Positions 30,801-50,026 of a stretch of 64,000 nucleotides of DNA are shown piece after piece. The notes below the pieces were generated by a model, which searched no databases, was not told the DNA's origin, and saw nothing but the letters and a program-made list of their open reading frames with translations. Location: NCBI RefSeq assembly GCF_010977555.1, contig NZ_CP048816.1:62001-126000 (forward strand), in the 5' to 3' direction. Both the position numbers and the translations under genes were made by a program. The stretch's first letter is position 1. Every line of letters starts with the position of its first letter. This DNA is from Caulobacter rhizosphaerae (GTDB lineage: Bacteria; Pseudomonadota; Alphaproteobacteria; Caulobacterales; Caulobacteraceae).

Positions 30801-32359
30801 AACAAGGGGTTGGTGAAGCCGGGATCGAGGAATGGCGCGGCGGGGCGATCGATGCCGTGCCGATCCAGATAGGCCTTGGCCGCCTCGCCTTCGTCCCCCG
30901 CGAAGCCCCTGTGCACCACGCGGCTGCCCGCCCACGTCGGCGGGATACACATCGGCTCGTAGACCTCCCGGCACGACACGATCAGCGCCAGGGCCGGAAA
31001 GCGTCCGATATCCACGGCCAGGCCCGCCAGGGTGGCCGACCAGATCTGGGGGACCACGGCCTCGTTGATCGCGTCGATCACCAGGAGGGCGGGGCGTCCG
31101 GCCGCCAGGGCCGCGGCGTTCAGCGCCCCTAGGAAGTCCTCGAAAGCCCACCCCACCAGGCCGAGCCGCTCCAGGATCTGTCCGCGTGGATCGCCTTGTC
31201 CGAAGTGCTGGCCCAGCAGCAGCAGGGCCGGGGCGGCCTGCGCGACGTGGTGTTCGACGAGGTGTGCGAGAATGTGGGACTTTCCCGCGCCGGCCTCGCC
31301 CGAGATCAGGAGAGCGGGCCTTTGCAGCAGCGGCGAGTTCAGATTCGCCAGAGTGCGGCTGGCGTCGGCGAACGCCTCGGACGCCTTGCCGCAGTAGTGC
31401 TCCCGGGTCCGCGCCGCCTCCCGTGAAAGGCCGCTCGGAGCGTCACCACGCCAAGCTCGACGCACGGCGTCGACCAAGGCCGACCGCTGGAAGCGCTCCA
31501 TGGCCGCGACCAACGCGGCGAGATCGATCGGCGTCGGCTCCAGGAACTCAACCGCGGTGGCGGCTTGGCGCAGCGCGTCGAGCGCGGTCCTGGCTGTGTG
31601 AACGGCGTGGTCATCGGCCAGGTCGGGCGCGGCGCGCGCGAGTGGCTCGAGCGCCTTGCTCGCGAGAGCCAGGCTTTCCAGGTGTTGGGCGACGGCATCG
31701 CGGTAGAGCCGACCTCGGGTCGTCGTATCGAGCGTCCTCTGAATCTCGACGTCGACGTGGTCGTCGGGGAGATAGCGCTCGGACAGATCGGCGCGGGTGG
31801 TCTGGAAACGCGCTTCAAACCACGCCTGGGTCAGGCTGACCTGATCGAACCAATAGAGCCGCAGGCCGGCGTGAACCGGATCGAGGCGGGTCAGGCGGCC
31901 GATTAGTAGGCTCTCGTCCCACAAGGAAATCTTGACGGCGCGGCCGAGGGCCGAAGCCTGCTGTTCGGCCTGCGTAGCGAACGCCTCCCAGAGCGCGCGC
32001 TGCGAGCGGGCCTTGCCTTTCACGCCGCCGGACAGATTGCGCGGCAGGACCACGACATATTCCCGCATCCGCGGGTAGGCCGTGAGCGCGGCGTCGAAGG
32101 AGGTCTTGATCTGCGCGATCTGTCCCGCCCCGAACGCCTCGGTGTGATATTTTGTCTGGAACCCGATGACCGATCCGTCGGACAGGTGGGAAAGGATCTC
32201 CACGCCTCCATCCGCGCCGGGTCCCTTGTGCTCCAGGCCGATGCAGTGGCTGGGCGGTTCGGCGATCAGGAGCTGGCGGGTCAGCTCCTCGAAGCCCATG
32301 GCCCGTCCGCCGCGGTGCGGTCGGATGCGCGCGAAATCGATATCGGGGGTGTGCCGCAT
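27833..32359 (-). CDS. Avs-like defence protein: Mrr-like nuclease domain fused to STAND NTPase
   Basis: 1508 residues from ATG 32359 (a GTG codon directly before it is also possible). Residues 21-72 show a restriction-endonuclease pattern: MGFEELTRQLL, then Asp50 and Glu54 in GADGGVE and Gln68-x-Lys70 in IGFQTKYH. The NTPase has Walker A Lys360 in SGEAGAGKS, Walker B LLVIDAINEA and a downstream SCREVYE sensor, all typical of STAND proteins related to Avs. The C-terminal ~700 residues are a long helical region ending in a W-rich stretch. It probably senses an invading phage protein and then cuts DNA (inference from family). No methylase is nearby, arguing against classical restriction. Confidence 0.75.
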   Translation of the reverse strand: MRHTPDIDFARIRPHRGGRAMGFEELTRQLLIAEPPSHCIGLEHKGPGADGGVEILSHLSDGSVIGFQTKYHTEAFGAGQIAQIKTSFDAALTAYPRMREYVVVLPRNLSGGVKGKARSQRALWEAFATQAEQQASALGRAVKISLWDESLLIGRLTRLDPVHAGLRLYWFDQVSLTQAWFEARFQTTRADLSERYLPDDHVDVEIQRTLDTTTRGRLYRDAVAQHLESLALASKALEPLARAAPDLADDHAVHTARTALDALRQAATAVEFLEPTPIDLAALVAAMERFQRSALVDAVRRAWRGDAPSGLSREAARTREHYCGKASEAFADASRTLANLNSPLLQRPALLISGEAGAGKSHILAHLVEHHVAQAAPALLLLGQHFGQGDPRGQILERLGLVGWAFEDFLGALNAAALAAGRPALLVIDAINEAVVPQIWSATLAGLAVDIGRFPALALIVSCREVYEPMCIPPTWAGSRVVHRGFAGDEGEAAKAYLDRHGIDRPAAPFLDPGFTNPLLLATCVRRLNAEGRKAFPAGVEGVSELFEFWLDGVEAQLVRRGYDRIAHGDGRLRRALSRLADQMALERCEALPILQAQALLEQEVNAIAPRAAEDQLLRRLIAEGVLRRDPAFGGQEETVSFTFQRFSDHFIAQAILRLFDTAPALAAALKAGGDLAYILAEPRRHAGVIEALMVQVPERLGVELVDLEHRFTDAVKLPVTSFLQSLQWRADTATSSRTVEIFQGCWADQPESGRRFIGMLLRLASHPRHALNADYLHARLGAMPMAERDAELAPAFYDALHQGEAAPVLIDWSLSARTDLADPERVRLVVLTLGWFLAAPSRPLRDRATKALTALFLRSPEQMAPALRAFLPRDDAYVRERILAAAYGAACHLAADAPAVLDAARLAYDNVFRNDPIERHAYVRHYARGLVNLATSQGPVTDLDPARVAPPFASEPITSWPDIADLRPHEESARAVLWSTVGHLPASGGTDMAGDFGRYVMGALGRDFSQARMAQGKPEPIGAAKTRFWDSVRALPSPLPDLATAALEAHDALATRRQQNTLAYFMSLRSGGKVEDDPAALALDAKIAKEAQTAERALRKALPRGLRLKPSQSLPYPAHDDRQYSRFNLALGQRWVAARVLELGWSKDLHAAAEREAGYHASRKDHINERIGKKYQWIAFHELIGYLADHHWRVGYDESPTILENLVDLRDVDLDPSFFPPKPNGAPREVPSLSLPPLDLPSPTSLEAAKIWVRDLCDLPYPPDCVEGRGHDGDRWWWLGGGRDDKGYYDKLQSVDLVQTGTASLEMIVLPLADAQRLHDALRGFKKPDNDADEEGWPTPRLFAEFRPELTPADDAILHRAIGGIRYGRLTDSVQPHRGEYDHGGHGDISFSAPRRWVLRALDLRPAGPSSPWFVNGQGRVGLVSPSAVGREGGAIINLDLLEPVLAARGLTGAWLVWAEKEGGYGAGPDYARRQGLACQVFGGLWWKDGDRWRGSNWRANEEMARA

Positions 32360-32503
32360 CACCAGAGTTGGCGCCTATCGACCAGGAGAACGAGCCTAGG
32401 ACGGAAAGGCTCGGGAGCTGAGCCGAAAATCATGCCAGGATTCGTTGGCCGTGGGGCGCGGCGGCGTCGCGCCAACACGGTCTCGAGCCGGGAGATTGGA
32501 CGT

Positions 32504-33769: not shown

Positions 33770-34864
33770 ATGAACATCCTGAATTTGCCGCGTCCGTTGG
33801 CCAGGACGTCGCTGACGGGGAGCGATCTCCAGGAGATTCATGAAGCCCTCGTCCGTTCGTATGAACCCGAGGCGCTCGCCTTGCGCGTCCTGTTCAAGTG
33901 GGGGATCCGCCTCGATTGGGAGATGGACGTGACCCAGGGCGGCCGGCGAGCCATCTATGGGCGCCTGCTCAAATGGACCGAGGAACAGGGACGCACGCGG
34001 GATTTGTTGGCCCTGGCTTGGACGGGAGCTAGCGGCAACGACTTTCTTCTCGCGGCCGCTAGTCGCCTCCTGACCGACCTCCCGGCTCTGCAGGGGCTCT
34101 ATGATCCGCCCCTTGGCGCGCAAGCGCCAACCCTGCCGAAAAGTGAACTGGAGGCTGTGGTCAGCGAGCGATCACGTTTGCAGGACTATGGCGAGTTTCT
34201 GTCACGCGTCACGGCGCTGGGGAGCGGCATCTGCAACGTGGAGACCCCCGGCGGAGGCTCGGGCACGGGTTTCCTTGTGGGACGGCGACATGTCCTGACC
34301 AACCATCATGTGGTGAAGTTGGCCATCGCCAATCGTCCGCTAGGAGAACAGATCAAATGTCGGTTCGACTATCACCGGCAGGCCGATGGCGGAGTGTCTA
34401 GCGGCCTAGGTGTTGGGCTCGCGGCCGACTGGTTGGGCGGCTTTAGTCCCCACGCTCAAAGCGACGAGACCGGAATGGGCGAGCCTAGTGCGGGTCAGTT
34501 GGACTACGCGCTTTTACGGTTGGCCGACGCCATGCCCGACGACCGCCCTGCCTTCGGGCTGCCCATCAAGCCCAGCGTCGTCGCGCCGGGCGACGTCGCC
34601 CTGATCGCGCAGCATCCAGGCGGCGACCCCTTATCGGTGGCCTATGGAGTCATCACCGAATTTCCGGCGACAGGGCTGAGGTATCGCTACAACGTCACCA
34701 CCGAGCGCGGCTCTTCGGGGGCGCCGGTTCTGTCGGCGGATCTTGATCTCATCGGCTTGCATCACGCGGCCGATCCGACCAATTCCCCGCGGTTCAATCA
34801 GGCCATCCCGTTGTTCCTGGTCGCGCGGGACCTGGCCTCGAGGCACGATTTGGATGCGCTCTAA
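33770..34864 (+). CDS. Trypsin-like serine protease with N-terminal effector-associated (EAD-like) domain
   Basis: 364 residues from ATG 33770, preceded by GGGGGAGGGGG. Residues ~13-110 form a small helical domain like EAD1 (LTGSDLQEIHEALVRSYEP ... ALAWTGASGNDFL), an adaptor that brings effectors to partner proteins in bacterial conflict systems. Residues ~150-364 are a trypsin fold with all three catalytic residues: His180 in LTNHHVV, Asp245 in QLDYALLRL, Ser316 in RGSSGAPV. No signal peptide: a cytoplasmic protease. The next gene starts in the TAATG overlap, so they form an operon. Confidence 0.82.
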   Translation: MNILNLPRPLARTSLTGSDLQEIHEALVRSYEPEALALRVLFKWGIRLDWEMDVTQGGRRAIYGRLLKWTEEQGRTRDLLALAWTGASGNDFLLAAASRLLTDLPALQGLYDPPLGAQAPTLPKSELEAVVSERSRLQDYGEFLSRVTALGSGICNVETPGGGSGTGFLVGRRHVLTNHHVVKLAIANRPLGEQIKCRFDYHRQADGGVSSGLGVGLAADWLGGFSPHAQSDETGMGEPSAGQLDYALLRLADAMPDDRPAFGLPIKPSVVAPGDVALIAQHPGGDPLSVAYGVITEFPATGLRYRYNVTTERGSSGAPVLSADLDLIGLHHAADPTNSPRFNQAIPLFLVARDLASRHDLDAL

Positions 34865-36192
34865 TGGGGCTGATCGAGGCGCCGCCGCGGCTGCTACCCG
34901 ATGAGGAATTGAGCAGCATTCTCGTCAGGGCGTTCGGCAGCGGACGACGCTCCGATTACGACATGTTGAGCGCGGTCACGTTCCAAGTGATGGGATGGAG
35001 GTTGGGCGAAGCGATCGGCGGTGACGACGAGCCCATGGTCACCCTGGTCAACAAGGTCTTGATACGCCTCGAAGACGCGGGCTCGGCCAAATGCGAGGAA
35101 GCCGCCGCCGCCTTCATGCGGGCCTTGCCGGGAAGCCGCGAACTGCGCGCCTGGGCCGGTCGTAAACGTCCAGCCTTGCTGGACCTGGTGTCCGAGGCCG
35201 ATTTTCTCGCGGCGGAACGCGAACTCCAGCGCCAACGCGTCGCGTCGGTGTCGGAGGTGTTCGATGAGCTACAGCGTTCGCGAGACGTGAACCGCATCGT
35301 CGGACAGCGGGCGCGCGATGACTTGGTGCTGGTCGCCGCGAATCTGAGCCGCCTGTCGGCTTGCAAGGGCGTCCACGACTTGCTGCACGGGGCCCAGACC
35401 GTGCCCTATGCGGAGCTGTCGTCCCTAATGGCGCCAAGCGCGGTCCTTACCGCGGAGGATGATCCACGCCTGGAGTCTCAACTCATCGCCCTGCAGACCG
35501 CCCAGGTCAGGATCGAAACCTATCTGCAGATGTTGGATGGCGATTCCGATTGGCTTCGCGATCTCCAGGACGCCATCGACCTGATCGGGACCGAGCCTCG
35601 TGATGTCGCCTCGATCCGTCTCGGTCTCTTTGGCCTCAGGGCGGTCCTGCGACAGCAATTGCCGATCTTCGACAGGGCGATCATCGAGGCGGCCCGGGAT
35701 ATTCCGTTTGGTCGGGTGGTTGAATTCCTGGGCGACACCGCGAGACTGGCGGCCGTGCCGCAGACGCTGGTCCAGCCGTTGAAGGTCGCGGCCAACGATT
35801 TGGCCGCTCTGGATCGAATCCTTGATCGCACGCTGCGCCTTCACGAACGTTGGCAGGCCATTGACGCTCGACTTTGGCCCATAGAGCAGGAATTGCAGAC
35901 GCCCGAGGGCGGTATCGAGCTCATTCGGCTTCATTGGCGGACGATCGAACGGTCCCTCGACACGCTGCGGCTATCGGCGCCTGATATGTGGGACCCAAAT
36001 CTTGATCGGGCCCGGGCCCAGGTCGGGCAGGCCCTCCTGTCGGGCGGGGTGGATCTGATGGCGGGCGCGCTGCTGACCTTCGTGCGCATCGGCCGATTGC
36101 AATTTCTTCGCGTGGACAAGGCGGTCCTTGAGCACTGCAACCGGATCGGCGCGCTTCAGCGTCCGATCCAACAGCTTTTGAGGGAAGGCTAG
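34864..36192 (+). CDS. EAD-like helical partner protein of the protease operon
   Basis: 442 residues; its ATG overlaps the previous stop by one base. The first ~95 residues (LLPDEELSSILVRAFGSG ... AFMRALPGSRELRAWA) are compatible with another effector-associated-type helical domain. The rest is a long series of helices without catalytic motifs (VLTAEDDPRLESQLIALQTA, RLGLFGLRAVLRQQLP) and could be a scaffold or coiled-coil sensor. Translational coupling to the protease says the two act together. It may be the protease's substrate or activator (inference). Confidence 0.6.
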   Translation: MGLIEAPPRLLPDEELSSILVRAFGSGRRSDYDMLSAVTFQVMGWRLGEAIGGDDEPMVTLVNKVLIRLEDAGSAKCEEAAAAFMRALPGSRELRAWAGRKRPALLDLVSEADFLAAERELQRQRVASVSEVFDELQRSRDVNRIVGQRARDDLVLVAANLSRLSACKGVHDLLHGAQTVPYAELSSLMAPSAVLTAEDDPRLESQLIALQTAQVRIETYLQMLDGDSDWLRDLQDAIDLIGTEPRDVASIRLGLFGLRAVLRQQLPIFDRAIIEAARDIPFGRVVEFLGDTARLAAVPQTLVQPLKVAANDLAALDRILDRTLRLHERWQAIDARLWPIEQELQTPEGGIELIRLHWRTIERSLDTLRLSAPDMWDPNLDRARAQVGQALLSGGVDLMAGALLTFVRIGRLQFLRVDKAVLEHCNRIGALQRPIQQLLREG

Positions 36193-36193
36193 A

Positions 36194-37711
36194 ATGGCGA
36201 GGTCGCCACGCTATTCGCCGAGCATGTCGCTGCCGGCCGTTCGTCGTCGTCACCTTGATCTGATGACGGCCTGCCCGAAGCTGAAGCCCGCCACCGTTCT
36301 GCGTCGCGCGACGGCGATCCGTCACCAAGCCGCCGAGCTTGGGCGCTGGCTGGAGGGCCCGGCCGATCGCGACGTGGCCCAGGGCATCATCGACTATTGG
36401 GCGGGGGCGATCGCCAGCCTGCCCGATCAGCCTTTTCCCGAGCTCAAGCGCCTGGCCGATTTCGATCCAGCCACCGGTCCCGCCGTCGAGGCGCGGGCGC
36501 GAAAGGTGTTCGAGGCGTTGTCTGACGCGGAAGTGGTCGCGGCCCAACATTTGTTTCTAGATTTGCTCAACGCCCCAGCGCCCTTCGGTCCGAAGGTCGA
36601 TGTCCCTCTCCTCGAAGCCGTTCGCGATAGGTTCGCCAAGGCCGGCGTCATCACCGCCGCCTTGGGCGGTCAAGGCTTCGTCATCGCCCATGAGGGCCTG
36701 TTGACGGAACACTGGCCGCAATTGGGCGCGTGGATCGCCGACGCGCGGTTCGAGGAGGCCCTGGTCGTCAAGCTCTCCAAGTCAGCCATCCTCTGGGGGA
36801 AATACAAGCGCAAGACCGATCTGTTGCTGGGCGATTCGTTGAAACGCGCCTTGCCTTATCGCGACCGCGGACCGGCGATCACGGCCTATATCGACGCCAG
36901 TTCCCGGCGGCAGCGCGTGCGCTGGGCGACCATGGCGTTGATCGCGATCATGGGCGTCGGCGCGGCCGCGCTGGTGTTCAATCGCCAGGAGTCGGACGAA
37001 GCAAGGATCAAGACGCTCGAGGACAACCTCGACCAGGTCATCGCTCCGTCCTCGACGGTCGCGCCGGACACTGCGCCTGTCGTCGATCTAGGGGCGGCGG
37101 GGCCAGAAGGCTATATTTGGATCGGAGGTTCCGGCCGCGCCTTGCTCAGACAGTATCCCTCGGCCAAGCCGGCCCTTCCCGACGCGATCGTCAAGGGCGG
37201 TCGCTACCGGAGCAACGGCAACATCGTGTTGCGCACGGGTTATCCCGATGGCGATTACCAATCGGCCCCGCGATCAGGGGTGATCGAACCCGACGCGATG
37301 GTCATCGCGCTTGATAAGCCGCGCGCCATGCAAAGACCATCGGGGCCACAATATTGGTTGCGCGTGAGAAAGCTGGTCGCCGTCTACATCCAATACAAGG
37401 GTGACCGCGCCCAAGCCGAGGCGTTGCGCCAGCGGTTGTTGGCCCAGGGCTATGATGTCCCCGGCGTCGAGGACATGAAGGACAAGGCCATCCCCGACGC
37501 CGAGGTTCGGTTCTATCGGGCGAGCGAGGCGGCATTGGCCCAGCGCCTCGGCATGGCCCTGAACGCCACGCTTTCGGGGGAGGACTCCGGGCCGGGACCG
37601 TCCTGCAAGCTGGCGACCGCCGCCCGACTTCCGCGGCCGGCGGTCCTGGAGGTTTGGATAGATTTCACCAGGCCGACGGCGGCGTCACCGAGCGTTGCCT
37701 GCCGCGTGTGA
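36194..37711 (+). CDS. Membrane-anchored adaptor with nSTAND1-like C-terminal module and SPOR/LytR_C-like tail
   Basis: 505 residues; starts one base after the preceding stop. Residues ~130-225 look like the winged-helix region that follows nSTAND1 NTPases (GFVIAHEGLLTEHWPQLGAW, then LLLGDSLKRAL), yet no P-loop precedes it, so the ATPase part is absent. One membrane helix lies at about 244-262 (WATMALIAIMGVGAAALVF). Beyond it are a small SH3-like stretch and a C-terminal alpha/beta domain (VYIQYKGDRAQAEALRQRLL, VRFYRASEA) resembling LytR_C/SPOR-type domains. The topology puts the HEGLL region in the cytoplasm and the tail in the periplasm. It could link the protease to the envelope. Confidence 0.62.
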   Translation: MARSPRYSPSMSLPAVRRRHLDLMTACPKLKPATVLRRATAIRHQAAELGRWLEGPADRDVAQGIIDYWAGAIASLPDQPFPELKRLADFDPATGPAVEARARKVFEALSDAEVVAAQHLFLDLLNAPAPFGPKVDVPLLEAVRDRFAKAGVITAALGGQGFVIAHEGLLTEHWPQLGAWIADARFEEALVVKLSKSAILWGKYKRKTDLLLGDSLKRALPYRDRGPAITAYIDASSRRQRVRWATMALIAIMGVGAAALVFNRQESDEARIKTLEDNLDQVIAPSSTVAPDTAPVVDLGAAGPEGYIWIGGSGRALLRQYPSAKPALPDAIVKGGRYRSNGNIVLRTGYPDGDYQSAPRSGVIEPDAMVIALDKPRAMQRPSGPQYWLRVRKLVAVYIQYKGDRAQAEALRQRLLAQGYDVPGVEDMKDKAIPDAEVRFYRASEAALAQRLGMALNATLSGEDSGPGPSCKLATAARLPRPAVLEVWIDFTRPTAASPSVACRV

Positions 37712-37720
37712 CGTTGGCTT

Positions 37721-38785
37721 CTAACCGGGCTTCAGTTCGGCGGTCAGGATGTTCTTCTTGATCGCCTCGAGACGCTTGGTCTTGGCCTCTTTCTGCTTGG
37801 CGTCCGTCTCGGCGCTGATCTCCGCCTGCAGCTTGAGCGCCTGCTCCCGATAGGCGATGTCGTTGGCCAGCTGGATGCCTTGCATCAGCGCGTCGATCGA
37901 GGCTTCGGCGCCGGTCTTGGCGTTGAGGAATTTCTTCAGCTGCTCGGCGGTGGCCAGGGTTGGCGCGAAGGACTCCAGGGACTTGCGTTCGGCGCCGTCG
38001 AGGCTGACCACGACATAGGGACTGTCGCCGTCGTATCGCGTGCCGGTCGCGCTCACCAATCCCAAACCGGGCTTATAGGTCAGGCCCCGGTGGTCCTCCG
38101 AGCCCATGACCCGGAAATCCGCCTTCGCGGGAACGACGCCCGGTATGTCGAAGTCGATGGTGTCGGTCGAGCTGAACGCGGGCTCGCCATCCACGAGGGC
38201 GTCGGCCCAGTCCGTGGCGATCTTCAGCAAGCCGCCGGCCGCCAGCAGGTATTCCCGGGCGGGCAGCAGTAGCGGCACGGCGGCGGCCTTGGTGAAGGAG
38301 GACGCGATCGTGTTCAGCAAGCCCTCTGGAAAGCGATCGAACGCCATTTCGACCGTGAAGATCAGCTGGTCGGTCAGGACGGCCGGCGAATAGGCCACCA
38401 CATTGGTGCCCGCGTTCACGGCCGAGGGCGCGACGAGTTGCCTTCGCGAGCCGATGCCTGGCTCGGCGAAGTTCACGGCTCGGCTGGCCGGCGCATAGGT
38501 CGCGTAGCCCTTCAACGCGGTGGTCACCAGCATGGATTTGTCGCCGCCGCCCAGGATGGTCTTCTTGGGATGCTTGCCCGTGTAGACTTCGCGGATCAGG
38601 ACCGTGAGCGGCTGGCCGCTTCCGATGGGCACGAACTGCGTGGCGCCGGTTAGATCGGATTCCAGCCCTTTCGCGCCGCCGAGCGCCGCCTCCAGGGGCG
38701 AGGGCCGATCCGGATCCGCCGACCGTGACTCAAGATATTCCGACTTGGTGACCACTTCTTCGCCGAGCACGCGAAAGACACTCAT
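37721..38785 (-). CDS. Uncharacterised protein inside the protease locus, opposite strand
   Basis: 354 residues from ATG 38785, with GGAGG abutting the start codon. No signal peptide. The first ~260 residues look beta-rich (GATQFVPIGSGQPLTVLIRE, GYATYAPASRAVNF), then a charged coiled coil ends the protein (LKLQAEISAETDAKQKEAK). I do not recognise the family. It points against its neighbours and shares a divergent promoter region with the peptidoglycan-hydrolase gene. It might be a regulator, an immunity factor or a tail-fibre-like structural protein; the sequence does not decide. Confidence 0.6.
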   Translation of the reverse strand: MSVFRVLGEEVVTKSEYLESRSADPDRPSPLEAALGGAKGLESDLTGATQFVPIGSGQPLTVLIREVYTGKHPKKTILGGGDKSMLVTTALKGYATYAPASRAVNFAEPGIGSRRQLVAPSAVNAGTNVVAYSPAVLTDQLIFTVEMAFDRFPEGLLNTIASSFTKAAAVPLLLPAREYLLAAGGLLKIATDWADALVDGEPAFSSTDTIDFDIPGVVPAKADFRVMGSEDHRGLTYKPGLGLVSATGTRYDGDSPYVVVSLDGAERKSLESFAPTLATAEQLKKFLNAKTGAEASIDALMQGIQLANDIAYREQALKLQAEISAETDAKQKEAKTKRLEAIKKNILTAELKPG

Positions 38786-38840
38786 CCTCCGACCCCCCGT
38801 TTGTCCAGAATGGAGGCCAACACTGCGACCATCGCGGGAA

Positions 38841-38893
38841 TATAATCAAGCCGATAGTTTTCATTGCAACTCAGTTTTACGTTGAGCTAGGCT
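38841..38893. promoter_or_regulatory. Divergent promoter pair
   Basis: TTGCAA at 38864-38869 is self-complementary and can serve as -35 for both strands. On the plus strand TAGGCT lies at 38888-38893 (18-base spacer). On the minus strand ATTATA lies at 38846-38841 (17-base spacer). The stretch is AT-rich compared with both flanking genes. Confidence 0.45.
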
Positions 38894-38917
38894 CGCTATT
38901 CAGCGGGGGCTGGGACG

Positions 38918-40273
38918 ATGGCTACCGAGCGAAATGAAGACCAGGTCGTGGACCTGTCACGGGACGTTCACGGCGATCCCGACGCCCCCGTCGCGGCGCC
39001 GGCGTCCCGCGGCGGACTGGAATCGTCGCCGCCCTGGCGGATCGCCGAGGCGCTGGAGGCGCTGCGCGAGCAAATCAACACGCTCGCGCCGGCTCGGGAT
39101 AAAGCCAGTGACGGGGGCGTCGGCGACGCCGCTCACCGTGCTCGCTCCAGCGATCATAATCCTTGGGTGGTCGACGGCGCCTACGGGGTGGTGACCGCTC
39201 GCGATTTCACGCACAGCCCGGGAACCGGATGCGACGCGGGCGTGCTGGCGGAAGGGCTGAGGGCCAGTCGCGACCCGCGGATCAAGTACATCATCTGGAA
39301 TCGTCGGATTTGCGCGAGCGAGCCACGGGATGGACAGGCCGCCTGGGCTTGGCGTCCATACGGCGGAACCAACCCGCATGACCACCACGTCCATGTTTCG
39401 GTGCAACCCCTTAAGGCGCTATACGACGACCCTCGCGCGTTCGCGATCACCAGCGTTTCGGCCACGCCGTCGGCGCTTCCCGTCGCCCGTGCGGAGCCTG
39501 GCCTCGAGATCGCGGCCATCGCCGCGGCGGCCAATCAGCTGGCGCAGCTGACGCCGCTACTTCAGCGTTTGATCGATCTGAAGGAAAGTCCGGACCTGAC
39601 CGTCGCAGCCCAGGCCGGACCGCTGCTGAGCCGCTATCTGGAGCTCACCCAACCGCGATCAGCGCCCGCTGGTTCCGATGGTCTTCGACTTGGCGACCTG
39701 ACCGACGAGTATGAGCGCCTTTTCTCCAGTTGCCAGATCCGCCCCGAATGGGCTGGCCAGGTGTCCTGGCACCGCAAGAAGCTGCTGGCCTTTCAACCCC
39801 GCTATGTCGCCGTGGGAAACCGGGCGCGTATCCCCTGGTGGGTGATCGGCGCCATCCACGCGATGGAGGGCGGCTTTGATTTCGCGACCCATCTGCATAA
39901 TGGCGACCCGCTCACGGGGCGCACCGTGAGGGTCCCCGCGGGCCGTCCGATCGCCACGCCCCCGCCCTATAGCTGGGAGGAAAGCGCGCTCGACGCCTTG
40001 ACGGGCCACGATCTGGCGGGCCTGGAAGATTGGAGTGTGCCCGCGACGTTGTTCCGCCTGGAGCGCTACAACGGCTTTGGTTCGCGACGGAAGGGTATCA
40101 ACACGCCATACCTGTGGAGTTTCTCGAACCACTATTCGAAGGGCAAGTTCGTGCGCGATGGTGTGTATGATCCCGAAGCGATCTCCAAGCAGTGCGGAGC
40201 CGCCGTCATGCTCAAGACGCTCGCCGACCACGGCGACATCGCCATCCGAGGCCTAGATGATCCTGCAAGGTGA
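38918..40273 (+). CDS. Two-domain peptidoglycan hydrolase (M15-like peptidase plus lysozyme-like domain), endolysin-like
   Basis: 451 residues from ATG 38918. Residues ~75-162 match the zinc site of an M15/VanY-type or endolysin peptidase: His80 in SSDHNPW, Asp96 in TARDFTH and the NPHDHHVHVS cluster (His154-159). Residues ~275-385 resemble a lysozyme/muramidase-like domain (IPWWVIGAIHAMEGGFDF, PPYSWEESALDAL). No signal peptide is visible, so, as for phage endolysins, it would need release or a hole to reach the wall. It overlaps the next EAD-protease gene by up to 17 bases. A role as the killing effector of the locus is inference. Confidence 0.7.
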   Translation: MATERNEDQVVDLSRDVHGDPDAPVAAPASRGGLESSPPWRIAEALEALREQINTLAPARDKASDGGVGDAAHRARSSDHNPWVVDGAYGVVTARDFTHSPGTGCDAGVLAEGLRASRDPRIKYIIWNRRICASEPRDGQAAWAWRPYGGTNPHDHHVHVSVQPLKALYDDPRAFAITSVSATPSALPVARAEPGLEIAAIAAAANQLAQLTPLLQRLIDLKESPDLTVAAQAGPLLSRYLELTQPRSAPAGSDGLRLGDLTDEYERLFSSCQIRPEWAGQVSWHRKKLLAFQPRYVAVGNRARIPWWVIGAIHAMEGGFDFATHLHNGDPLTGRTVRVPAGRPIATPPPYSWEESALDALTGHDLAGLEDWSVPATLFRLERYNGFGSRRKGINTPYLWSFSNHYSKGKFVRDGVYDPEAISKQCGAAVMLKTLADHGDIAIRGLDDPAR

Positions 40274-41300
40274 TATGCGGAGGCGCGTTCTCGAATCCAT
40301 TGAGAACAGCTTCAATATAAATGACATGAGCACGATTGTCTCGAGAAGACTGGATTTGCGTATTGATAATATCGTAAATGTAAATGGACTTTGGGGAAAT
40401 CAAGTCGATACGATATACGGCCATTTTGAACGGCGTAATACGGTGGAAGAGCTTCTAGCCGTCCTACGCGACGCCAGGCCGGCCGTGCCGGACTTCGCCT
40501 TCGCGCTCGACGAGCTGGGCTTCACGCGAATTTCCAATGGAGCCCAGGTTGGCCCCATCGCTCTGGAGGTCATGCTTTCCGACCGAGGCTATCGGGACGC
40601 CCCTGAATTTCGCGGCAAGCTTTCGATGCTGGAGGGGCGAGTCTGTCAGGTGAGGGCGGCGGGAACCGGGACGGGGGTGCTCATCGCGCCGGACCTGGTC
40701 CTGACCAATCGCCATGTCATCGCCGGGTTGCTCGCCGCCGATGGACGCGCCTTGTTGGGCGACGTCACGTGCGTCTTTGACTGGAAATCGGGGGGCGCCC
40801 GTTTCGCGACGCCCGAGACGCGGGTGGTCGTGAGGAGCGTGGAAGCCAGCAGCCCCCACGCGGATGGCGACCTGGTCGCCGGCCCGATGGTCGATTCAGC
40901 CAGCCACCTGGATTATGCGATCCTGCGCCTGGCCGAGCGGATCGGCGACAAGCCCATCACGGTTGGCGGCGAGCCTCGCGGCGTGGTCGAGGTCGCGCCG
41001 TCCGGATCCGGGCTGAAGACCCACGACGCGGCCCTGATCCTGCAACATCCGATGGGGCAGCCGATGATGATCGACATTGGCGCGGTGTTGGAACAAGGAC
41101 CCACGCGGTTGCGTCACAACGTCAACACCGCTTCCGGGTCCTCCGGGGCGCCCCTGTTCGACGCCACGCTGAGATTGGCGGCGCTCCATCACGCCGGCCA
41201 CGAAAACGGTCCCCCGTCTCACGGGGTCACCGGCTTCAACCAGGCCATTCCCATCGAACCGATCCTCGATGACGCGCGCCGAGAAGGAGTGATGATCTAG
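40257..41300 (+). CDS. Second trypsin-like protease with N-terminal EAD-like domain
   Basis: 347 residues from ATG 40257; an ATG at 40275 with GCAAGG upstream is equally possible. Residues ~5-90 are an EAD1-type helical domain (LESIENSFNINDMSTIVSRR ... DTIYGHFERRN). Residues ~125-345 are a trypsin fold with His153 (LTNRHVI), Asp219 (HLDYAILRL) and Ser296 (SGSSGAP). It is clearly paralogous to the protease at 33770. The EAD part is AT-rich: 40321-40440 holds 47 G/C of 120 bases, and the switch to GC-rich codons comes at the end of the domain. Cytoplasmic. Confidence 0.82.
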   Translation: MILQGDMRRRVLESIENSFNINDMSTIVSRRLDLRIDNIVNVNGLWGNQVDTIYGHFERRNTVEELLAVLRDARPAVPDFAFALDELGFTRISNGAQVGPIALEVMLSDRGYRDAPEFRGKLSMLEGRVCQVRAAGTGTGVLIAPDLVLTNRHVIAGLLAADGRALLGDVTCVFDWKSGGARFATPETRVVVRSVEASSPHADGDLVAGPMVDSASHLDYAILRLAERIGDKPITVGGEPRGVVEVAPSGSGLKTHDAALILQHPMGQPMMIDIGAVLEQGPTRLRHNVNTASGSSGAPLFDATLRLAALHHAGHENGPPSHGVTGFNQAIPIEPILDDARREGVMI

Positions 41301-41302
41301 CC

Positions 41303-42373
41303 GTGCCCCTCCTCGTCGACGAAGAACTCGCTCTCATGAGGTTGGCCGACGACCTGACCCAGGCCGAGCTCGACCATGTTCTTTTTCGGGCCGTGCAGGC
41401 GCGAACGGACCGGTTCATCGGCGCGAACTCGGCGGCGCCGGCCGTGTCGGTGGCGTTCGTGGCCTGGCTCAGAAGCCGTGAACATCTCGCGCCGGATATT
41501 CTGGCTGGGCTTCTGGTCGACTATCCCCGCCATCCCTCCAGCGTCCCGCTAGCCGCCGCCGAACAGCGGCTGAGAGCACGTCTGGCCAGGATGCCGCGCT
41601 GCGCGCCGCACGAAGCCGTGCTGGTCGGCGGCATGCCCATCGTCAATCGCGTCGAACTCCGTTCGCACCTAGCCGATCTGGTATCGGGCTATGCGTGCCC
41701 GGTGGTCGTGGTCGAGGGCGAGCGCGGCTTTGGCCGAAGCCATTCCTGGAAGCTCATTCGCCATGTCGCCGAGCAGTTGGGGCCAACCCGGATCAAGCCG
41801 ATCGGCCTGGACTTGGTGGGGCCTGTGCTGGCCAATCAGACCCTGCCAAACCTGTTCGCGCATCTCACGCGCGTTCTTGGCATTGCGGTGGGGCCCCAAC
41901 CGATCTGCGATGGCGTCACGGATGGCGCCTTGAGCGCGCTCTTCGTCGCCGAATTCCTGGCGCGCGTTGAAGCCATGCCCACGCCCTGGCCCGCGACGCC
42001 TTGGATCGTGTTCGACCACTTGGATCGGCATTTGGCTCCCGAGGTCAAACTGTTCGTCGCGGGCCTGGTGGACGCGCGCCTCAATGGCGCGTTGCATGAT
42101 TGCGTGATCTTCCTGCTTGGTCCGGATCTGAAATTGCCGATCAAGGATCCTGGCCGGTTGGCGCGCCGAGAAAGATTGACCAGTTTCCTGGACGCGGAGA
42201 TCGACGCGGCCGTTCGGGCGCTCAATCTGCTTGGGGCAAACCCGCTAGACGGGGCGGATCTGCAGGGTGAGGTGGACGCCTTGCGCGGCCTTTGCTTGCG
42301 CCATGCCGGCGCTGATTTGGCGTCAGCGGTCTTCGAGGGGCTGGTGGATCTTCGCGAAAGGGTGCGGGCATGA
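41303..42373 (+). CDS. Degenerate P-loop protein of the protease operon
   Basis: 356 residues from GTG 41303. The first ~85 residues are helical and could be another effector-associated-type domain (LADDLTQAELDHVLFRAVQA). A P-loop-like strand-loop-helix follows, VVVVEGERGFGRSHSW, in which Arg145 takes the place of the Walker A lysine; a Walker B-like strand (TPWIVFDHLDRH) lies ~100 residues later. ATP hydrolysis is therefore doubtful; it may bind nucleotide without cleaving it or act as a partner. Its stop overlaps the next start (ATGA), so the two are coupled. Confidence 0.62.
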   Translation: MPLLVDEELALMRLADDLTQAELDHVLFRAVQARTDRFIGANSAAPAVSVAFVAWLRSREHLAPDILAGLLVDYPRHPSSVPLAAAEQRLRARLARMPRCAPHEAVLVGGMPIVNRVELRSHLADLVSGYACPVVVVEGERGFGRSHSWKLIRHVAEQLGPTRIKPIGLDLVGPVLANQTLPNLFAHLTRVLGIAVGPQPICDGVTDGALSALFVAEFLARVEAMPTPWPATPWIVFDHLDRHLAPEVKLFVAGLVDARLNGALHDCVIFLLGPDLKLPIKDPGRLARRERLTSFLDAEIDAAVRALNLLGANPLDGADLQGEVDALRGLCLRHAGADLASAVFEGLVDLRERVRA

Positions 42374-45120
42374 TCGACGATCGCCGCCGCGCGCCGCCGA
42401 CCGCGGCCGAGCTGATGACGGACGGGCCGGTGCGCGATCTATGGGGGCGCGCCGCGGTTCGAGAGCGGTTCCAGTCAGGGGACCTGCTAGGTGGCTGGCT
42501 GGGCGCGCGCGGCTCTTCATCGTCGGCCCAGCTGGAGCTGGCTCAGCGCACGGCGCTTGATCTGCAGCTATTGGCGACGCCGGCGGAGGCCGCCGACGGT
42601 TCCCCCGCCGTGCGGCTCAGGCAACGCGATCGCGTGCGCGTGCTGAACGCGATCGGCGCCGCCGACGCCAAGCGTTTTCTCGACGAGATCGCGCCGGACG
42701 ACAAGACCCAGGGCGAGGCCCTGCTTTCAACGATCCTCAACGGTGACGCCGTCGCCGTGGACGCGGCCAATCGGCTCGGACTGGCGACCTGGGCTCAAGT
42801 GGCGCCGCTGGCCGAGGCGGTGGGGGCGTCCATCGCGACCGACCTCGCCACGGTTCGTCGGCGGATGGATGAGCTGGACTTTCTCAACCTCGTCGGTGGC
42901 GCGGATCTGCCACGCTTCATCGGCCGAACGCGCGAGTTGGCGAAGCTCCATCGGGCGTGGGCCAGGGGGGTGCCCGTCGTGGAAATCGAGGCTCCTGGCG
43001 GCATGGGAAAGTCCATGTTGATCGCCAGGTTCGTTTCCGAATTGCTGGAAAATCCAGAAGAGCGCCCGACGGCGATCTTTCACGTGGACTTCGATCGGCG
43101 TGACCTGCAAAGGGCCCGCCCCGTGACGATCCTGGCCGAATGCCTGCGTCAGGTTGACCGGTGGATAGACGAACCGCGAGCGCGACGGATCGCGGCGAAC
43201 GCGGTCGCGTCGGCGACCTGGGTCGACGATGAAGACGATTATGGCCACTCGCGGGCATCGGAGTCGTTTTCCATGCACCAAGACAGGTTCGCGGCCGATC
43301 TTGGCTTTCTGCTTCGCGAGAGCTCCAGGCACAAGCGTCCTCGAGTGGTGATCATCGCCGACAGCGCCGAGCAGGTTTTCGATTTCAATGACCTGGCCGC
43401 TGAAAGCCCCCTGATCGCGGCTGACATGCTGCGCCGCGAAGCCGGCTGCCAGGTCATGGTGATCTATGGGTCCCGCCATTTTCCCCCGTTCTGGCGCTCG
43501 GGCGAGCGCCGGATCATCCTTGGCGTCCTGAGCCCCGATCAGGCCAAGGCCTATCTGACGACCGAGGCGGCCCGCTTTGGGGTCACGATCGCCAAGGCTC
43601 ACTTGACGCGTGTCATCGGTGCGGTCGGCCGCTCGCCGCTGGCCCTCAGATTCGCGGCGCGCCTCTTGGCGTCCGACGAAGTCGACGACGCCGAGGCGTG
43701 GCTCGACGCCGTGGAATCCGATCCCGAACGCATTCAGGCGACGCTGTACGACCGCGTGCTGCGGCGCATTCGCGATCCGGCGTTGCGTAGGCTGGCGCGT
43801 CCGGGATTGCTCGTGCGGCGGCTGACCACAGAGGTTATCTCGCAAGTCCTAGCTGGGCCCTGTGATCTGGATTTCCGTGAGGCCTCGCCGGACGGCCTAC
43901 TGGCCGCGGCGGAAATGGAAGGGCAGCTGTTTCGCCGCGACCCCGCCGATCCAGGCGCCGTTTGGCATCGGTCGGATGTGCGCGCCCTGATGCTGCGCGA
44001 CCTCGACGCGACGATCCCCAGTTCCGTCGCGCGTGCGATAAACCTAGCCGCTATCGAGTTTTACGCCTGCTTCGACGATCCGATTTCGAGAGGCGAGGAA
44101 CTCTATCATCGTTTGCGTCTGGGCCAGTCTGGCCACCTCATCGCCGAGCGTTGGATCCCCGAGGCTGGCGATCGGCTAAAGCTGGCCGCGGAGGAGTTCG
44201 GACCAGGCGCTAGATCGACGCTGCGCAGCCTGCTCGGAACCGCGTCCCTGCGATACCGGGAAGGCGTCAAAGGCTTGCGGGAGGCCGAGGAGGCGCTGAC
44301 GGACTTTCCCGATGGATACGCCGAATTGCGACGCGTGATCAGACGCGACATTCAACAAGGCCTAGCCCCGCTTCCAACGCTGGCCCGTTACGGGTTGGAT
44401 CGTTTGGATGGGCCGCTGGGCGACGTATACGCCGAAGCCCTGGTGGTGGCCGGCTGCTGGCACGATCTCTTGATCCAGGCCAATCGGCTAAGGTCGAATT
44501 GGCGACATGTCCCTCCGTCGTCGGCCGCCTCGATCTACGCCACGACCGCCGGCGTGCTCGAAGGATTGGGTCGGCTTTCCGAGGCTTTCACCTATTGGGA
44601 TATCGCCGGAAGCATCGTGCTTGGACCGTCCACCGACCAGGATGGAGAGCGTTTGGCTCTAGGCGTTAGCGTGGGACAGGCACGAATACGTCGCAAGACG
44701 ATGCCCCTTGGCGTGTCGCGGCGAAACGCGGAGCTTGATCGCCTTTTCCGGGAGGCGCGCGGGAGCGAGCAAGCGCTACACGGCGGGGCGGTGCTTTTGC
44801 GGGAATTGGTGGCCGAACTCATCGAAATCCTGGGAGACGGCTATCACGAGGGCTTTCGGCAGGTCTTTGATTGGCTGCAGGTTCTGCTGGAGCGAAACGA
44901 AGCCTTCCCCAGCGCCCTGGACAACCCCGCTCGCGCCAAGGAGATCGCGCGCGTCCTCGGGGCGCCGGATTGGCCGATGAATGAGCTCATGTCCTTGCTT
45001 CGCAAGCAGCTCTACGAGGCGCGCCATGATGAAAGACAAATGGCCGCCTGGGCGCGCTTGCTGCGAGAGGAAGTGGATTGGACCCTGGCGAAGGCCGTCT
45101 CGCGTCGATCGTCGAACTAG
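42370..45120 (+). CDS. STAND-type ATPase sensor of the protease locus
   Basis: 916 residues; ATG 42370 in an ATGA overlap with the previous gene. Residues ~1-150 form a helical N-terminal region. The ATPase domain begins near 185 (RFIGRTRELAKLH), with Walker A Lys214 in APGGMGKSM and Walker B RVVIIADSAEQVF; a winged-helix region follows. The C-terminal ~350 residues are helical, TPR-like repeats (GLREAEEALTDFPDGYAELR). This is the STAND layout: repeats sense, ATPase switches, and the N-terminus recruits effectors, here probably the EAD protease or the P-loop partner upstream (inference). Confidence 0.72.
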   Translation: MIDDRRRAPPTAAELMTDGPVRDLWGRAAVRERFQSGDLLGGWLGARGSSSSAQLELAQRTALDLQLLATPAEAADGSPAVRLRQRDRVRVLNAIGAADAKRFLDEIAPDDKTQGEALLSTILNGDAVAVDAANRLGLATWAQVAPLAEAVGASIATDLATVRRRMDELDFLNLVGGADLPRFIGRTRELAKLHRAWARGVPVVEIEAPGGMGKSMLIARFVSELLENPEERPTAIFHVDFDRRDLQRARPVTILAECLRQVDRWIDEPRARRIAANAVASATWVDDEDDYGHSRASESFSMHQDRFAADLGFLLRESSRHKRPRVVIIADSAEQVFDFNDLAAESPLIAADMLRREAGCQVMVIYGSRHFPPFWRSGERRIILGVLSPDQAKAYLTTEAARFGVTIAKAHLTRVIGAVGRSPLALRFAARLLASDEVDDAEAWLDAVESDPERIQATLYDRVLRRIRDPALRRLARPGLLVRRLTTEVISQVLAGPCDLDFREASPDGLLAAAEMEGQLFRRDPADPGAVWHRSDVRALMLRDLDATIPSSVARAINLAAIEFYACFDDPISRGEELYHRLRLGQSGHLIAERWIPEAGDRLKLAAEEFGPGARSTLRSLLGTASLRYREGVKGLREAEEALTDFPDGYAELRRVIRRDIQQGLAPLPTLARYGLDRLDGPLGDVYAEALVVAGCWHDLLIQANRLRSNWRHVPPSSAASIYATTAGVLEGLGRLSEAFTYWDIAGSIVLGPSTDQDGERLALGVSVGQARIRRKTMPLGVSRRNAELDRLFREARGSEQALHGGAVLLRELVAELIEILGDGYHEGFRQVFDWLQVLLERNEAFPSALDNPARAKEIARVLGAPDWPMNELMSLLRKQLYEARHDERQMAAWARLLREEVDWTLAKAVSRRSSN

Positions 45121-45128
45121 CGGGGCTT

Positions 45129-45686
45129 TCAAGGACGATAGTCGGGGGCGGGAGAGGCCTTCCAGTACCGCTGATAGTATTGCTCGACGGGGAGGTCGGG
45201 CGCTCGGCGCTCGCCCGTCTTCCAGTCAGCGAAAGCCGTCTTCCAGGCCGAGGCCTCCTTGGCGTACGCGCCGCCGCCGCCCAGCCGGACGGCGCGATAC
45301 ATGACCGTGCGTCGAGCCAGACTGACGTTAAGGTCGGCCATGGCGTCGAGGAATATCCGATCGGCGAAGGCGCGTTGGCCAGTCTCGCCGATCAGGTATA
45401 GCCAGTCATGCAGGACGGCCGCCTTGGCGTGTCGGCCGAACGGCGGGAAAACGCCGCGCACGGCCGTGGGAATTGACGCGAAGTCGGTGACATAGCCCTC
45501 GGGGACGTCGATCTGAGCGCCAGACGCGGTGTGAATATAGCGGAAGCCGTAGGCCACGACCGCAGTGGTCCGGCCCTCCTTTTCCTCCGCTGAATCCAGC
45601 ACCGCCACAACCAGCGGCAGCGGCATGACCGGCGCGTAGGCTTCCAGGCCGCCCTTTGGGTTTGGCTCCAGAGGTTCGAAAGGCAA
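45129..45686 (-). CDS. DUF1353 family protein
   Basis: 185 residues from TTG 45686, with GGAG about eight bases upstream. The core is DUF1353: GYVTDFASIPTAVRG, then AAVLHDWLYLIGETGQRAFADRIF and MYRAVRLGGGGAY. DUF1353 proteins are frequent in phages and phage-derived regions; the conserved Asp/His residues suggest a small hydrolase or structural role, but none is proven. Converges on the STAND gene with eight bases between stops. It may mark an old phage insertion. Confidence 0.8.
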   Translation of the reverse strand: MPFEPLEPNPKGGLEAYAPVMPLPLVVAVLDSAEEKEGRTTAVVAYGFRYIHTASGAQIDVPEGYVTDFASIPTAVRGVFPPFGRHAKAAVLHDWLYLIGETGQRAFADRIFLDAMADLNVSLARRTVMYRAVRLGGGGAYAKEASAWKTAFADWKTGERRAPDLPVEQYYQRYWKASPAPDYRP

Positions 45687-48701: not shown

Positions 48702-48971
48702 ATGACCTTCAGCATCAAGGACCATCCGTTCTATGTGCGGATGAAGCAGTTGCCGCCGCAGGAGGTGGCCGCCTGGGTGCTGGGCGAGGCGCCGGTCGAA
48801 GCGGTCGAGGCGAAGCTTCGCAAGGAGGCGTTCCGCCGGGTGGCCAAGCACATTACCGCGGGCAAGGCCGAGCGGAGCAAGCACGGCTTCAACTCCGACA
48901 CCAACGGCGAGATCGCCCGAGCGATGGAGTGGGCGTTTCAGGCCGGGCTCAAGGCCGCAAGCAAGACCTAG
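48702..48971 (+). CDS. Small conserved-looking protein of unknown function
   Basis: 89 residues from ATG 48702 with GGAG about seven bases upstream. Basic and helical: FYVRMKQLPPQEVAAWVLGE, then KHITAGKAERSKHGFNSDTN. No membrane segment. Its stop overlaps the end of the convergent AbiEii gene by four bases. A nucleic-acid-binding role is possible from the charge, but this is a guess. Confidence 0.55.
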   Translation: MTFSIKDHPFYVRMKQLPPQEVAAWVLGEAPVEAVEAKLRKEAFRRVAKHITAGKAERSKHGFNSDTNGEIARAMEWAFQAGLKAASKT

Positions 48972-50026
48972 GACGCCGGTGTGGCGTTCAATCGGGCTTC
49001 GAGGGCGACGATGCTGGCCAGCACGTCCTCGAAAGCCGGCGGCGTTCCGAAGATCATCCGGGCCATAAGGTCGTAGTCCTTGGCCAGGCGCGCGGTCATT
49101 TCATCATGGGGAACCAGCCCGTAGGTTGGCGGCCGGGCGGCGGCGAGGTTGGCGTCCGGACGATTGAAGAACAGGCGCGCGTGCAGCGCGCAGTTCTCGG
49201 CCAGGACCTGGTCAGCTAGGGCGCGTTCGCCACGGTCCGATTGGACCAGCCGGTGGAGGTCATAATAATGGCGCGACACGCGCTGACCCTCGCCCCGCAG
49301 CACGCCCTTGCTGTCGAACGCCGCGCGCAGGCCATGGAGGATGAGCACCTTGTCCCAGAATGTGCGCTCGGGATCGACCGTGGTGACGTTGGCGACCGTC
49401 AGGTCCAGGTCGGCGACCTCGGCCGCAAGATAGGGCGTGACCGCGAGGGGCGCGTTCGGGTCCAGCGCCGAGCGGGCGCCGCTTTCGATCGTCACGTGGC
49501 CGGCGATGTAGGCGTCGGCGGCCAGGGCGCTCGGATAGACCACCCGCAGGTTCAGCCGATCGGCCGGATCCTCGGCGATGCGCAGGGCGCCGGCCGGCAG
49601 GCCCAGCCGCTCGACCGTGGCGGCCGTCAGGGCCTCGAGTTCCCCGCGCAGCCGGCCCTGGATGTAACCGGCGCAGACATCGGAGAGGTTTTCCAGCCAG
49701 GCTTTGCGCTTCTTGCCTGAGAGCGCGTCGAGCTCGGTCAGGCTTTCGCCTTCGCCCAGGTCGTCGCGAAAGACCGTGACGTCGATGTCCTCCGAGAAGC
49801 GGGCGATCAGTCCAAAGCCCTTAGAGAGCGAGGTGCCGCCCTTGAAGAGCAGTCTGGGACCTCCGGCGGGCAGGCGGTTGAACAACTGATCCAGGGTCCA
49901 GCAGACCCAGAAGTCCTTCTCGACATTCTGCGGCGTGGTCCCCAGGCGAGCGGCCGTGGTGTTGAACAGGCCCCGTCGGTCATCCTCACCGGCGCCGATC
50001 ACCTGGTCGACGGCGAGGTGGGCCAT
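48968..50026 (-). CDS. abiEii: AbiEii-type nucleotidyltransferase toxin
   Basis: 352 residues from ATG 50026; the start overlaps the antitoxin stop in TGATG. The nucleotidyltransferase signature is plain: LLFKGGTSLSKGFGLI followed by RFSEDIDVTVF (Gly-Ser and Asp-x-Asp motifs), with a second acidic patch downstream (DRLNLRVVYPS) and the family's PERTFWDKVLILH segment. AbiEii/Sav1826 toxins transfer nucleotides, in known members to tRNA ends or other acceptors, and stop growth. Type IV toxin-antitoxin pairs of this kind give abortive infection against phages. The order antitoxin then toxin is standard. Confidence 0.9.
   Translation of the reverse strand: MAHLAVDQVIGAGEDDRRGLFNTTAARLGTTPQNVEKDFWVCWTLDQLFNRLPAGGPRLLFKGGTSLSKGFGLIARFSEDIDVTVFRDDLGEGESLTELDALSGKKRKAWLENLSDVCAGYIQGRLRGELEALTAATVERLGLPAGALRIAEDPADRLNLRVVYPSALAADAYIAGHVTIESGARSALDPNAPLAVTPYLAAEVADLDLTVANVTTVDPERTFWDKVLILHGLRAAFDSKGVLRGEGQRVSRHYYDLHRLVQSDRGERALADQVLAENCALHARLFFNRPDANLAAARPPTYGLVPHDEMTARLAKDYDLMARMIFGTPPAFEDVLASIVALEARLNATPAS

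Follow-up and report, generated by a model that had tools for sequence, protein, structure and literature searches.

What is the function of a locus that brings together two trypsin-like proteases, a STAND ATPase and an enzyme predicted to cut the cell wall? The question is raised by a stretch of 64,000 nucleotides of Caulobacter rhizosphaerae (NCBI RefSeq assembly GCF_010977555.1, contig NZ_CP048816.1, positions 62,001 to 126,000 of the forward strand; hereafter the window), in which a preliminary description made from the sequence alone had marked eight genes, g1 to g8, as a protease-centred conflict locus. That characterization holds, as do the eight open reading frames, their positions and their start/stop contacts: g1 and g2 overlap by 1 nucleotide, g5 and g6 by 17, and g7 and g8 by 4, and gaps of 1 and 2 nucleotides separate g2 from g3 and g6 from g7, respectively. 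The span assigned to the locus was right for these eight genes but stops 8 bases short of a DUF1353 gene (PF07087, 106.3 bits), which lies 8 nucleotides past g8 on the opposite strand; this gene is the ninth member of the locus and probably its most informative part. The locus consists of three recurring pieces, namely g1–g3, g6–g8, and a lysis set of g4, g5 and the DUF1353 gene. Read from their sequences, these pieces point, with a probability of roughly 0.5, to a protease/NLR-triggered envelope-lysis system in a defence island, most likely serving abortive defence.

33770..34864, plus strand: g1, EAD1 plus trypsin-like protease (Pfam EAD1 and Trypsin_2; full protease motifs)
34864..36192, plus strand: g2, helical protein with an EAD1-like N-terminus (profile match to EAD1; no Pfam family above cut-off)
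36194..37711, plus strand: g3, membrane-anchored protein with the end of nSTAND1 only (nSTAND1 match, hydrophobic segment)
37721..38785, minus strand: g4, protein without assigned function, divergent from g5 (relatives beside g5-type or lysis genes)
38918..40273, plus strand: g5, M15-like zinc endopeptidase domain plus lysozyme-like domain (structure model, Foldseek)
40257..41300, plus strand: g6, EAD1-type domain plus trypsin-like protease (Trypsin_2; EAD1 by profile)
41303..42373, plus strand: g7, degenerate P-loop protein, Walker Lys replaced by Arg (comparison with a Paracoccus homologue)
42370..45120, plus strand: g8, STAND/NLR-type ATPase (nSTAND1, LypB-type profile match, Walker A)
45129..45686, minus strand: DUF1353, phospholipase A2-type protein (PF07087, 106.3 bits)
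27833..32362, minus strand: Avs2 gene of the same defence island, given as context (PADLOC Avs2, 968 bits)

The joint presence of these pieces exceeds chance, because the same parts recur together elsewhere. At least four of the genes occur together in three other loci (L187, L025 and L012), which bears out the preliminary description in treating the genes as one cluster. In L187, from another genus of the family, homologues of g4, g2 and g3, an NlpC/P60–DUF1353 fusion and an EAD1-trypsin form an operon of overlapping genes; upstream of it lie HamA and an overlapping DEAD-box helicase gene, and NucA is missing from that genome. The fusion of a wall hydrolase to DUF1353 within this operon is the strongest single hint that both activities belong together. 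L025 has g1–g3 homologues, a g5 homologue and a trypsin–NucA gene in a row, and in L012 g1–g3 homologues adjoin DUF1353 and lypABC-type genes.

The second domain of g5 belongs to a widespread family, with 238 relatives among genome contigs and 314 among viral ones, of which the best 80 each were retained. The M15–lysozyme fusion is present in 7 of 80 genome loci, and in each of the seven the fetched flanks contain trypsin, NucA or S8 genes; with the same profiles, the other 73 loci have a caspase gene in four and trypsin, NucA or S8 in none. As the genomes behind these counts are related (L027 and L066 closely so), the counts are not independent, and the association of the fusion with flanking protease genes (Fisher p = 1e-7) ignores kinship, flank length and profile seeding. 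Because window relatives and plasmid hits served as seeds for the flank profiles, weak neighbours may be missed, and single-seed ‘patatin’ matches (6 of the 73 other loci) were left out of the counts. In L024 the g5 frame ends early.

Plasmids carry further combinations. A lysozyme-type gene, DUF1353 and a caspase gene are grouped on two rhizobial plasmids, and Sinorhizobium meliloti encodes a single trypsin–NucA–lysozyme protein beside an M15-type protein, with CHAT and S8 genes nearby. The full row on plasmid pCpl (L007, 7862–19477) comprises the trypsin–NucA–lysozyme, M15-type, alpha/beta hydrolase, PAS/GAF, CHAT and S8 peptidase genes. For 11 of 15 plasmid records with DUF1353, a caspase gene adjoins it in four (two being assemblies of one strain), a wall hydrolase or holin adjoins it or lies close by within a phage-like stretch in three, and neither immediately adjoins it in four (one of which has a peptidoglycan-binding protein two genes off). 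A different recurring context is seen on two Methylobacterium plasmids (L016, L020), where a protein with a lysozyme-like domain follows genes for cytochrome P450, a helix-turn-helix regulator and a di-haem peroxidase.

The lysis set also leads to a published system. The lypABC genes of Caulobacter crescentus encode a CARD–trypsin protein with an ATPase domain lacking the Walker residues, an NLR protein and a trypsin–NucA protein (Banks et al., 2026; PMC13236601). According to the available part of that report, all three proteins are required for the lysis that releases gene transfer agents (GTAs); lysis depends on both trypsin activities and on the NLR ATPase but not on the NucA active site, and the lytic effector is unidentified, while phospholipases act as effectors in other CARD–NLR variants (PMC13236601). 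Of the phage-sensing, protease-activated lysis system suggested in the preliminary description, protease-activated lysis would fit these genetics; for phage sensing the only pointer is the setting in a defence island. In Caulobacter vibrioides DSM 9893 (L022, L193), homologues of g4, g5 and DUF1353, 71%, 71% and 73% identical to those of the window (tblastn), adjoin three genes that match lypABC, in the place of which the window has g6–g8; g1–g3 are not in the fetched stretch. The three encoded proteins have 592, 1027 and 666 residues with the chosen starts and carry the published residues S262, T356, S360 and F361 as well as K230 and D335; S296 matches in the third if its start lies four residues later (published length 662).

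Within the genus, DUF1353 is a more constant partner of lypABC than g5, because its distribution tracks LypB and that of the full M15–lysozyme protein is narrower. A DUF1353 at least 71% identical is present in 5 of 75 genomes, i.e., that of the window and four with a LypB at least 63% identical (hypergeometric p = 4e-6, the genomes not being independent), and it is divergent to lypA in all four loci (L012, L022/L193, L194 and L256), of which L022/L193 and L194 are close relatives. Another 41 of the 75 have only distant DUF1353 matches (at most 46%). The full M15–lysozyme protein is found in 3 of 75, with three more by the lysozyme domain alone.

In C. crescentus itself, CCNA_00581 lies at 609290–611077 on the minus strand (1788 bases), CCNA_00582 is on the plus strand and ends at 611757, and CCNA_00583 was lengthened by 191 residues in the 2014 re-annotation, as given in the available part of that annotation (PMC3951458). 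The lypA frame of L194 (5561–7348) is likewise 1788 bases long, and its DUF1353 ends 685 bases beyond, compared with 680 in NA1000. From position and length, CCNA_00582 would be the DUF1353 gene, and CCNA_00583 is probably the M15–lysozyme gene. The available texts state that no canonical holin–endolysin homologue was found in C. crescentus (PMC13236601), that homologues of the Rhodobacter capsulatus lysis genes are absent, and that no holin or endolysin is among the GTA-induced genes (PMC9632790). A g5-type protein could escape such homologue searches because it matches no Pfam family.

TtaP, a DUF1353 protein, is a phospholipase A2 (PMC11525133). Across an alignment of DUF1353 sequences, the His–Asp pair is kept in 11 of 11 and the second catalytic Asp in 10 of 11, and the window copy, which has all of these residues, is predicted to be a phospholipase A2 of the TtaP kind. 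DUF1353 is found in 22 of 385 genomes of the class sample. A second, distant copy in this genome (L200, G000:C1:5245509) is 41% identical and has a lipoprotein-like N-terminus, and distant copies of this sort are frequent in the genus. The g5 protein matches no Pfam family, and thus shows no EAD1 by Pfam, and has no evident signal peptide. Its model (mean pLDDT 77) agrees with the M15-type assignment made earlier for the first domain, which resembles the catalytic domain structures of the pneumococcal L,D-endopeptidase VldE (Foldseek E = 7e-4, TM-score 0.60 by target length; PMC11667670), so that its predicted fold is that of an M15-type zinc endopeptidase. Among viral models, the best match of the second domain is a phage ‘peptidoglycan binding-like’ protein (E = 7.7e-9, low TM-score), and a lysozyme-like fold is supported by relatives of this domain that occur in fusions with PG_binding_1, M15_3, or trypsin plus NucA; neither g5 nor its lysozyme domain gave anything meaningful against PDB sequences. 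In the class sample, full-length g5 has matches in 2 of 385 genomes, one of them by the lysozyme domain alone. The g4 frame is a real gene, because a relative 71–72% identical occupies the same place in C. vibrioides DSM 9893. It is present in 4 of 199 genomes of the family, lying beside a g5 homologue in L022/L193 and L194 and first in the operon of L187. Structure prediction from two g4 sequences reached a mean pLDDT of 35; a search of viral contigs gave 35 pattern matches and no relatives, and a 25% identical match in Pseudarthrobacter has no related annotated neighbours.

The g6–g8 module joins an EAD1-type trypsin, a degenerate P-loop protein and a STAND ATPase. The g6 protein matches Trypsin_2 (59.5 bits) and, full-length but under the cut-off, EAD1 (13.4 bits), and its protease is closest to the LypA-type trypsin (profile E = 1.8e-17). 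The description of g8 as a STAND ATPase is supported: it has a Walker A motif, APGGMGKS, at 208 and an nSTAND1 match of 26.8 bits, just below the 27.1 cut-off, and together with its homologue it matches a LypB-type profile across 447 columns (E = 2.9e-22), the N-terminal domains being without a match (0.25). No trypsin domain was found in g8 by the Pfam scan. A Paracoccus plasmid encodes a counterpart of the module: genes for a trypsin, a P-loop and a STAND-type protein (the last of 922 residues), each overlapping the next by 4 nucleotides, whose products share 35%, 28% and 28% identity with g6, g7 and g8, respectively, in the aligned regions. Both the trypsin and the P-loop protein of Paracoccus have EAD1 above the cut-off (50.7 bits in the g7 homologue). 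The P-loop of g7 had been said to lack the Walker lysine, and its loss is supported by homology, GERGFGRS in g7 corresponding to GANASGKS in the Paracoccus homologue. Only one of the 385 class-sample genomes, its own, contains g7, and searches of plasmids for g2 and g8 gave no match. The idea that g7 is the detached C-terminal domain of LypA was rejected, since there is no profile match (E = 0.22–0.26), though the layout is analogous. Downstream of the Paracoccus operon (L258, 15654–24588) stand four large proteins in a row, three of which were scanned and have no Pfam match.

The g1–g3 module adds a second EAD1-trypsin. In g1, EAD1 scores 28.9 bits (cut-off 24.2) and Trypsin_2 61.1 bits, and the serine-protease motifs are complete in both trypsins (TNHH/LDYA/GSSG in g1, TNRH/LDYA/GSSG in g6), as had been claimed. 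With an EAD1 profile built from relatives, the g2 N-terminus matches at E = 1.4e-4, g6 at 0.008, g7 at 0.45 and g8 at 0.18, with four control sequences at 0.15–0.49. When one further sequence was included in the profile and the Paracoccus homologues were added to g6 and g7, the values were 7.5e-6 for g6, 2e-5 for g2 and, across 28 columns only, 0.0019 for g7, with controls at 0.045–0.43. The EAD kinship proposed for the N-terminal helices is thus supported by profile for g1, g2 and g6 but not for g7 itself or g8. No Pfam family lies above the cut-off in g2, and its homologues adjoin an EAD1-trypsin in L012, L025 and L187. The view of g3 as a membrane-anchored nSTAND1 remnant was likewise confirmed: only nSTAND1 positions 259–378 are matched (Pfam), a single hydrophobic segment lies at residue 244, and no Walker A motif was found in the sequence. 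Two Sphingomonas relatives of about twice the length stand in the order NucA, EAD1-trypsin, helical protein, g3-like protein, and the one examined has an intact Walker A/P-loop. By phmmer this relative is collinear with g3 at the N-terminus, weakly in the middle and at the C-terminus, and by profile comparison the two align in the C-terminal part only; the NTPase core was presumably lost on the way to g3. Matches of the g3 C-terminus in L003–L006 were rejected as evidence, no further gene of the locus being found in the wider stretches L013–L015 (tblastn, phmmer). Within the family, EAD1 occurs in just 3 of 149 genomes, and this rarity and that of g4 are as expected of an accessory system.

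The closest described systems are System 3 and LypABC. The locus resembles LypABC in having a related trypsin (g6), a LypB-related NLR (g8) and a partner with a degenerate P-loop (g7); in C. vibrioides, moreover, lypABC-type genes and the lysis set g4–g5–DUF1353 are neighbours. Unlike LypABC, the window has EAD1 and no detectable CARD (a LypA-type N-terminal profile gave E = 0.25–0.57 against g6, g7, g2 and EAD1), the protease and ATPase parts of LypA correspond to two genes (g6 and g7), the ATPase part without a sequence match, and an additional EAD1-trypsin/g2/g3 module is present while a trypsin–NucA LypC is not. In System 3, NucA is accompanied by trypsin, EAD1, STAND, lysozyme and papain-like peptidoglycan domains; a subset of the trypsins is fused to EAD1, the lysozyme or papain-like domain is linked through EAD1, and certain operons have a STAND NTPase whose N-terminus carries a trypsin and a Death-like domain (Kaur et al., 2020; PMC7159879, available part). 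Both are alphaproteobacterial and combine several trypsins, EAD1 and a STAND NTPase with domains of the peptidoglycan-cutting kind. The locus differs in that NucA is missing from the locus and the genome, Pfam shows no EAD1 on the putative wall hydrolase g5 and no trypsin in g8, and DUF1353, g4 and g2 are not among the components described in the available text (PMC7159879). NucA as a hidden effector of this genome was rejected, as PF01223 (Endonuclease_NS) has no match genome-wide and a control search was positive in 4 of 14 genomes.

The preliminary description had presented both an endolysin-like enzyme and a P-loop partner without the Walker lysine as a combination without known precedent, which was too strong: lysozyme and papain-like domains are described for System 3 (PMC7159879) and an ATPase part without Walker residues for LypA (PMC13236601), in the available texts. 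Other defence systems include MBL-fold nuclease proenzymes that are activated by trypsin or caspase (PMC12799240, available part); like these, the locus pairs a protease with a candidate effector enzyme moved between defence systems, whereas the putative effectors here are a phospholipase and a wall hydrolase. A DUF1353 phospholipase A2 is also encoded with a phage-type muramidase in TtaP/TtsA of the typhoid toxin islet, where, unlike here, no protease/NLR module is mentioned in the available text (PMC11525133). As far as seen, the new features are the NucA-less form, the set of g4, wall hydrolase and DUF1353, its sharing with lypABC, and the NlpC/P60–DUF1353 fusion. By title, no DUF1353 paper concerned defence (subscription-only papers and preprints lay outside the search), and among the matches listed for wall hydrolase or phospholipase together with defence, no title or abstract opening describes the pairing.

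In the proposed mechanism, a trigger would cause the STAND ATPase g8 to assemble with its degenerate partner g7, and the EAD1-type domains would gather the trypsins g6 and g1, which would unleash the executioners by cleavage. The DUF1353 phospholipase would attack the inner membrane from inside, in place of a holin, and g5 would then reach the wall and cut peptidoglycan; g3 would hold the g1–g2 module at the membrane, and g4 would go with the lysis enzymes. What the sequences show is the gene content, the domain kinship, the conserved catalytic residues and the recurrence of the modules and of the lysis set; every enzyme activity in this locus, the cleavage step, the sequence of events and the nature of the trigger are inferred. 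A wider proposal, possible though tentative, is that the executioner still missing from LypABC-like and EAD1-trypsin/NLR systems is this phage-type lysis pair (DUF1353 and a muralytic enzyme), with an exchangeable upstream sensor/protease module (lypABC, EAD1-trypsin/STAND, caspase, CHAT) and constant lysis enzymes; CCNA_00582 and CCNA_00583 would be the C. crescentus candidates.

Several observations weigh against protease-triggered lysis by these enzymes. For the second domain of g5, the matches to MltF, goose-type lysozyme and MltE are no more than weak (E of about 1 or above), the fused DUF1353 copy of L187 is the sole exception in the alignment (second catalytic Asp replaced by His), and the DUF1353 gene of the window is transcribed separately from the proteases. 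The Paracoccus trypsin is nearer to g1 (38%, E = 3e-48) than to g6 (E = 8e-35), and its module has neither g5 nor DUF1353 in the fetched stretch, large uncharacterised proteins standing there instead. Genomes G141 and G681 have lypABC and DUF1353 but no g5, and G061 has a diverged lypABC (LypB 38%) with neither. In C. crescentus, 41 genes were enriched in transposon sequencing, among which the available text names no lypABC neighbour (PMC13236601), a silence that could be explained by two redundant executioners; ghost cells keep their shape (PMC13236601, available part), which fits membrane damage better than wall damage and argues against wall cutting there. Separately, the diverged lypABC of G061 (L255, G061:C1:585000-604500) has genes of 508, 569 and 519 residues divergent from it, which could be another effector or sensor set.

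Some of these points favour an explanation in which the proteases are themselves the effectors, cutting host or phage proteins, with g5 and DUF1353 as passengers of phage origin that a mobile defence island carries along. Both enzyme families occur in phage-like contexts too, DUF1353 stands without g5 in G141 and G681, and the Paracoccus module lacks both in the fetched stretch. Against it stand the independent pairings with trypsin, caspase and CHAT loci, the hydrolase–DUF1353 fusion inside an operon, the kept catalytic residues and the 71–73% identity to the C. vibrioides set, and this explanation is considered unlikely.

Less probable still is that the lysis set serves the release of particles (GTAs or a prophage), as lypABC does in C. 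crescentus, and not defence. LypABC controls GTA release (PMC13236601, available part) and its relatives adjoin the same lysis set, but the present locus, on a contig of 231,492 bases (in a genome of two contigs, 5.96 Mb), has Avs2 and further genes of defence type as neighbours, the operon of L187 follows HamA and a helicase gene, and there is no lypABC in this genome, by the lack of a LypB match. Because Avs2 and other defence-type genes surround the locus, a defence role seems likelier than particle release. That two independent systems, g1–g3 and g4–g8 with DUF1353, merely lie side by side is improbable, because, although a g6–g8-like module stands alone in Paracoccus and the lysis set stands with lypABC but without g1–g3 in the fetched stretch of C. 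vibrioides, g1–g3 adjoin DUF1353 and lypABC-type genes in L012, overlap g4 and hydrolase–DUF1353 genes in one operon in L187, and stand in a row with g5 and trypsin–NucA in L025.

Besides Avs2, the window contains a cyclase–AAA_16 protein of 1154 residues (14869–18333), a RES-domain protein (24903–25538), and an AbiEii-type nucleotidyltransferase gene followed by a DUF6088 gene (48968–50727), possibly a toxin–antitoxin pair. A 1298-residue protein (20861–24757) and a further protein (26482–27651) have weak matches, below the Pfam cut-off, to nSTAND3 and HEPN_Swt1, respectively.

With protease/NLR-triggered envelope lysis as the preferred reading, two neighbouring genes can be named as candidate lytic effectors for LypABC, which has so far been without one. 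If the reading is true, it would link bacterial NLR and caspase-like systems to lysis enzymes captured from phages and show a way in which these systems could kill with neither a gasdermin nor a nuclease.

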